Of a stretch of DNA of 6,199 nt, positions 10 to 573 are shown piece by piece. Location: positions 1-6,199 of the forward strand of contig JAGGVT010000198.1 in NCBI GenBank assembly GCA_021157815.1. The letters run 5' to 3'. The DNA is from a bacterium (GTDB taxonomy: Bacteria > JAJVIF01 > JAGGVT01). The translations under genes and the position numbers were made by a program. The notes under the pieces were generated by a model. That model saw nothing but the letters and a program-made list of their open reading frames with translations. It ran no database searches and was not told the DNA's origin. Each line of letters begins with the position of its first letter. Position 1 is the stretch's first letter.

Positions 10-573
10 CTATGGTTGTGCAGACACGCAAGGTTTGTCAGAACAGTTATCGGTATCAAGTTGCCTCCTGGCAATACCCTGACATATATCTTCTTCGCAA
101 AAACAAGTCATACAGTAACATCCTCTTATCGCATTCCTAAGGTCATTCATATCCCATTCATCCCATTTTGAAACCAATTGGCTGCCGCAACCAAACTTTA
201 TCCATCGTCCTGTTGGCCAGTCACAATGCGCCCGGCATAAAACTGGTTCTGTAATATAGCCGCAAGGATAACTGCAACAGAGATTTCGTTTACAGTTCCA
301 TTTAATTATTTGCCAGCACCATAATGAAGAACCAGGGCAGGGTAATACTTCATAATCATCCGTCCAACTTAAACAAGTATACACATCTGTTGGGACGTTA
401 TTTTTGTCAGCAGTAACACAGCATTCAAATGCATTTACTGGTTCTAAGAGAATCTGAAGAAACAACATAATAAGGGAAGCAAATATAATTAAAAACAAAG
501 ATTTGTGGGGGGGGGGGTAGAAAATTTCATTTTTGTCTCCTAACCTTTTAAGGTCATGGAACTTAAGCCCCAA
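10..573 (-). CDS. Cysteine/tryptophan-rich secreted protein, unknown function (frame out of register with its best start)
   Basis: I do not recognise a family. The open frame is 187 codons from a TTG at 571–573, which has no convincing ribosome site, to a TAG at 10–12. Residues about 24–42 form a strong hydrophobic segment preceded by H and K and followed by EPVNA, a V-N-A signal-peptidase I type site, so export is likely. The mature part (from F49, about 139 residues) holds 19 cysteines, including CC pairs and a CYCMTCFC cluster, and 8 tryptophans. This suggests a compact disulfide-bonded or metal-binding extracytoplasmic protein. There is no lipobox and no second membrane segment. The intended start is probably the ATG at 530–528, which follows AGGAG but is in another frame; an 11-C tract lies between it and the signal peptide. 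With 12 C the product would begin MKFSTPPPHKSLF and be 173 residues. The gene diverges from rimP. Export is well supported; function is unknown. Confidence 0.6.
   Translation of the reverse strand: MGLKFHDLKRLGDKNEIFYPPPHKSLFLIIFASLIMLFLQILLEPVNAFECCVTADKNNVPTDVYTCLSWTDDYEVLPCPGSSLWCWQIIKWNCKRNLCCSYPCGYITEPVLCRAHCDWPTGRWIKFGCGSQLVSKWDEWDMNDLRNAIRGCYCMTCFCEEDICQGIARRQLDTDNCSDKPCVSAQP
507..517 (-). repeat. Homopolymeric C11 tract inside the start region of the secreted-protein gene
   Basis: Eleven consecutive G on the + strand, read as C on the coding strand, lie 11 nt after the ATG at 530–528 and just before the signal-peptide hydrophobic core. The frame from that ATG reads M-K-F-S-T-P-P-P-T-N-L-C-F and stops at 489–491. 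Adding one C, or losing two, joins the ATG to the HKSLFLIIF signal-peptide frame. Poly-C/G tracts of this length in the 5' coding region are the classic substrate of slipped-strand phase variation. A miscounted homopolymer in the assembly would look the same. Confidence 0.75.
528..541 (-). promoter_or_regulatory. Shine-Dalgarno AGGAG plus ATG for the secreted-protein gene
   Basis: On the − strand, AGGAG (541–537) is followed by six bases (ACAAAA) and ATG (530–528), an ideal spacing. It is far better than the TTG at 571–573, which lacks a purine-rich site. The resulting N-terminus (MKFSTPPP, then HKS and the hydrophobic core) is a more typical signal peptide than the 22-residue preceding segment of the TTG version. 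It is out of frame with the present tract length. Confidence 0.7.

Follow-up and report, generated by a model that had tools for sequence, protein, structure and literature searches.

A poly-C tract as a probable phase-variation switch on a secreted-protein gene, and similar tracts on lipoprotein genes, of an uncultured bacterium

Introduction

What is to be made of a gene with a consensus promoter, a good Shine–Dalgarno sequence and an intact body, whose start codon is out of register with its main reading frame? The question is raised by a run of 11 cytosines (C11) on the − strand of the 6,199-nucleotide stretch of DNA analysed here, called the window below, which is an entire contig (C70) of a 3.2-Mb draft genome in 221 contigs. 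The original prediction, made from the letters of this stretch, took the run as a candidate phase-variable switch. The host phylum is tiny and uncultured, and is sampled here by four genomes including three sisters; its NusA is 55% identical to that of the nearest named MAG records (DAOVJF010000179.1 and JAPKYR010000157.1).

The closest known system is the translational phase variation of surface genes through poly-G/C tracts, exemplified by the Campylobacter phasome and by Neisseria pilC and nalP. For Campylobacter phasomes, a poly-G/C cut-off of at least 7 is used and tracts of at least 8 have been shown to switch (PMC6321876). In Neisseria, tracts are established both at the 5′ end of coding regions and in the spacer between the −35 and −10 elements (PMC5320596).

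The start codon, the tract and the reading frames

The gene is preceded by a sigma-70-type promoter that matches the consensus at 12 of 12 positions (TTGACA at 633–628, a 16-nt spacer and TATAAT at 611–606, − strand), the sole promoter-like site within positions 1–1000. Its −10 element lies 75 nt from an ATG (530–528), which is served by an AGGAG Shine–Dalgarno sequence (541–537) at a spacing of 6 nt. Because this perfect promoter precedes it, the ATG is regarded as the natural start. The homopolymer (G507–G517 on the + strand, C11 on the − strand) begins 13 nt from the A of this ATG. At its assembled length, the ATG frame reads MKFSTPPPTNLCF and ends after 13 codons at a TAA (491–489). Past the tract, the secreted-protein frame (507–10) is open down to a stop at 12–10, with no other lesion in the gene body. 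It encodes a signal peptide with the core HKSLFLIIFASLIMLFLQILLEPVNA, followed by a mature part of about 139 residues that includes 19 cysteines and 8 tryptophans. Searches of Pfam, NCBIfam and the PDB with this protein gave no match, no relative of it was found in 96 other genomes and viral contigs, and a single-sequence AlphaFold model was poor (pLDDT 41).

When the frame was recomputed for tract lengths of 8 to 14, the secreted protein fell in the ATG frame solely at 9 and 12, yielding 172 and 173 residues, respectively, both with the signal peptide. Lengths of 8, 10 and 11 gave products of 12, 34 and 13 residues. The predicted arrangement, an AGGAG–6 nt–ATG start whose C11 frame stops at 489–491 and which enters the signal-peptide frame with 9 or 12 cytosines and not with 10, is exact to the base.

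The same secreted protein can be read at C11 from an upstream TTG (573–571), as had also been foreseen: the ORF spans 10–573, encodes 187 residues and stays open through the signal peptide. Could translation simply begin there, leaving the tract incidental? We deem this very unlikely. The TTG has no clear Shine–Dalgarno sequence, whereas an AGGAG stands 6 nt before the ATG; the product from the TTG would bear a long, polar, proline-containing leader ahead of the hydrophobic core; and the other switch loci described below would not be covered by such an explanation.

Chance and the placement of G/C tracts

That a C11 tract would be very unlikely by chance, as first supposed, held up: 200 shuffled versions of the window contained none, and the number expected under a first-order Markov estimate, based on sampled loci, is 0.38 per genome and 0.0007 per window. 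The tract at 507–517 is the longest G/C tract genome-wide. Long G/C tracts as a class show no genome-wide excess, with 37 distinct tracts of at least 8 observed against about 33 expected, and about 15 of the 37 fall in a dispersed intergenic hairpin repeat. This repeat, CCCCCCCC-TTAAT-CCCCCCGCGAGCGGGGGG, is present in about 15 copies in the genome, carries tracts of 8–10 and supplies most of the long non-genic G/C tracts (loci L001, L002, L007, L008, L015, L027, L032–L035, L039, L042, L044 and L045).

The unusual feature of the remaining tracts is their position, not their number. Outside the dispersed repeat, four of the six tracts of at least 9 sit at switch-type positions. Seven of the 37 lie near SD-ATG starts (P ~2e-4), judged against the 3.2% of strand positions in sampled loci that are no more than 62 nt from such a start, a biased and hence generous figure. 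With paralogues collapsed, four independent cases are left, for which P is about 0.03 among all 37 tracts and 0.004 without the dispersed repeats. Counting alone thus gives moderate significance, and more weight falls on the long ORFs that remain intact downstream of the tracts.

Recurrence at secreted-protein and lipoprotein genes

All G/C tracts of at least 8 in the genome were read, and the genome was searched for an SD-ATG followed by C7 or G7 and for tracts in promoter spacers. Nine genes carry a tract soon (within about 110 nt) after a good SD-ATG, namely the window gene and eight others, and all nine encode a signal peptide or a lipoprotein N-terminus. The window gene, with C11, is OFF as assembled and would be ON at 9 or 12. 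C23, C194, C174 and C13 each have C8 and are OFF, with the frame restored at 9; the same holds for C109, whose tract is a G8 just past the lipobox. C89 (C9) is OFF and comes into frame at 8 or 11, C37 (C7) is OFF, and C14 (C9) is in frame and ON. Altogether, eight of nine coding loci are OFF and one is ON (seven and one, respectively, among the eight beyond the window). By our own arithmetic, a random phase would produce at least eight OFF loci of nine with a probability of about 0.14, which does not contradict switching; the OFF count is further qualified in that five of these loci are alike in phase and have a 5′ cassette in common.

In a pattern search of the genome, SD-ATG followed within 0–30 nt by C7 gave 14 overlapping matches from eight places, versus two with the reversed pattern. 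One of the eight places, C53, lacks a convincing ORF for a secreted protein downstream of its tract. Widening the gap to 31–61 nt adds C13, which is relevant, and C18, where no gene of this type starts; the corresponding G7 pattern had no match in the genome. Among the sister genomes, G001 has no more SD-ATG-C7 matches than the control and G003 little more. G002 exceeds its control, with much more G/C in the matches, and the cases inspected there are without a secreted-protein switch. One sister locus (G003:C155:4956-5004) has an ATG followed by C8 in frame with a 507-codon ORF, a register that would be lost with C7 or C9; a hydrophobic segment follows about 25 residues later.

Tracts also occur within two promoters of the genome, both belonging to signal-peptide genes. 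At C216, TTGACA and TATAAT flank an 18-nt spacer with a G10, before an ORF starting MMNFRLFSKYYMLLIPLFLILLASPAMA. At C149, TTGACT and CATAAA, the latter a weaker match to the −10 element, flank a 17-nt spacer with a G8 before MMKFKILAFLMVFLVITSVAQ. No poly-C was found inside promoter spacers of the genome. The arrangement resembles the promoter-spacer variation of Neisseria porA and fetA, where a homopolymer between −35 and −10 likewise sets the spacing. Unlike those cases, the tracts here have a putative effect on transcription, and they lie outside the window. With eight further secreted-protein or lipoprotein loci and two promoter-spacer tracts beside it, C11 is probably a slipped-strand translational phase-variation switch, one of a proposed set of nine translational and two promoter-spacer switches, to judge from sequence. 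The phase variation originally proposed for the window gene gains its support from this recurrence.

A lipoprotein family with a shared 5′ cassette

Behind the tracts, the reading frames of the lipoprotein genes are long and open, extending for 1213 codons at C23, 1070 at C194, about 1067 at C37 and 1095 at C109; a further switch locus is open for 219. C194 and C23 share fewer than half of their residues, with dN 0.54 and dS 2.4 (saturated) over 949 codons; from dN 0.54 against dS 2.4, it follows that the two have been under selection as proteins. Three sequence features expected of slipped-strand phase variation are found at these loci and in the window: a G/C homopolymer of at least 7–8 in the 5′ coding region (C11 and eight further loci), a tract whose length decides whether the main frame is in register with a genuine start, one that has a Shine–Dalgarno sequence and a promoter, and a gene body intact behind the tract (in the window and at the paralogous loci, open for 1070–1213 codons).

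These findings bear on whether the window gene might be a young pseudogene, decaying after a chance expansion of its tract. It is OFF as assembled and no homologue of it was found, as decay would have it. Against this stand its perfect promoter, its good Shine–Dalgarno sequence and the lack of a second lesion; the paralogous OFF genes hold ORFs of more than 1000 codons under protein-level constraint, and the tract position recurs at other loci. Decay is accordingly most improbable.

The 5′ ends of five of the lipoprotein genes are far more alike than their bodies. The first 175 nt, comprising promoter, Shine–Dalgarno sequence, signal peptide, tract and mature N-terminus, match one query with 80–98% identity at five loci (L129:150-330, L136:60-240, L128:195-375, L051:1556-1740 on the − strand and L137:140-330), while identity between the bodies is for the most part about 50% or lower. 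So similar a cassette on such divergent bodies suggests that it has spread by recombination or gene conversion. Two paralogues, C208 and C51, are without the tract and have an uninterrupted reading frame; because they read through, the tract is regarded as something added to the family. The lipoproteins had no confirmed relative in the genome contigs searched, and the three sister genomes have no relative of either the lipoproteins or the secreted protein.

Miscounting and recoding

Homopolymers are the usual site of sequencing error, and this is a draft of 221 contigs. The true tract might then be C12 (or C9) and the gene constitutive, and one extra base would bring six OFF loci into frame in addition to the window gene. 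Such a miscount should break long tracts irrespective of position, which is not the case. Elsewhere in the genome, five tracts of 8–9 inside genes leave their ORFs intact and in frame: G9 in C41 (a CheA-like ORF of 762 codons), G9 in C104 (395 codons), G8 in C35 (235 codons), C8 in C90 (437 codons) and G8 in C75 (289 codons). Moreover, C89 needs one base fewer, not one more, and C14, with its C9, needs no change at all. We hold a miscount to be unlikely. In a further ORF of 263 residues, which ends in KEGGG, a G8 lies just 5′ of the stop (L041:1987-1994), and a change in its length would alter the C-terminus.

A second alternative leaves the length of the DNA fixed and has the frame changed at a fixed rate by programmed recoding, through either transcriptional slippage or ribosomal −1 frameshifting. 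The shift required, which equals a −1 frameshift, is the same at seven of the eight OFF loci, and it is retained in five paralogues even where C8 has turned into C7 with compensating bases. Five of these seven, however, share a recent 5′ cassette and hence are not independent. A single frame relation fixed across all loci is not seen: C14 is already in frame, such that slippage would disrupt it, and C89 needs the opposite shift. The promoter-spacer tracts at C216 and C149 are outside the reach of recoding altogether. Slippage and frameshifting in bacterial IS elements provide the nearest parallel, in that a homopolymer likewise parts the start from the main frame; here, in contrast, the run is of C or G rather than A or T, one locus is in frame and one needs the opposite shift. 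A survey of bacterial slippage concerns A and T runs (PMC1088944). Recoding is, to our mind, quite unlikely. Slippage and miscounting, the competing explanations named at the outset, are both weakened by the intact in-gene tracts of 8–9, the differing frame needed and the ON state of C14; with the promoter tracts and the opposite shift at C89 also considered, programmed slippage and systematic assembly error were rejected as main readings.

Proposed mechanism and significance

Slipped-strand phase variation is defined by a tract length that varies between cells or strains, and the variation is reversible, frequent and alters expression. In the window gene, DNA polymerase would slip on the poly-C at replication, such that C residues are gained or lost. 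A length of 9 or 12 would join the SD-ATG to the signal-peptide frame and turn the gene ON. At 8, 10 or 11, translation would end after 12–34 codons, leaving the gene OFF or expressed weakly from TTG573. Since all the switches sit on secreted-protein or lipoprotein genes, the population would become mixed in its surface and secretome phenotypes. The genes for MutS and MutL are present, which rules out a loss of mismatch repair; because of their presence, moderate slippage rates are expected at C8.

The bacterium, known here from one genome for the species, thus probably turns the expression of a set of its surface and secreted proteins ON or OFF in a random manner. There is a good chance that it has its own multi-locus phasome. 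This would comprise poly-C/G switches of two sorts, about nine acting on translation and two in promoters, all at genes for large lipoproteins or orphan secreted proteins, with a cassette shared by several of the switches. By analogy with other phase-variable surface proteins, the benefit may be escape from phage, from predators or grazers, or from a host, or else variable adhesion. In the draft, gene callers have probably mis-started or missed these secreted proteins.

The mechanism is of an already known kind; the lineage is what is new, and a search of the open-access literature left us aware of no report of phase variation in it. Why do genomes with multiple phase-variable loci seem limited to pathogens, or is this a bias of the databases, as a review asks (PMC11868660)? 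A clear case in a distant, uncultured lineage would bear directly on this question.

Neighboring features of the window

On the + strand of the window, divergent from the secreted-protein gene, lie rimP, nusA, ylxR and infB. A scan of the window for tRNA genes and Rfam families gave no match. The intergenic region from the secreted-protein gene to rimP harbors a perfect 14-nt inverted repeat, AAAATCCGCGATTG, at 650–663 and 820–833 with its arms 156 nt apart. Immediately 5′ of rimP, an intrinsic-terminator-like hairpin, GAGAGTGGGTTATATACCCACTTTT, occupies positions 896–920.
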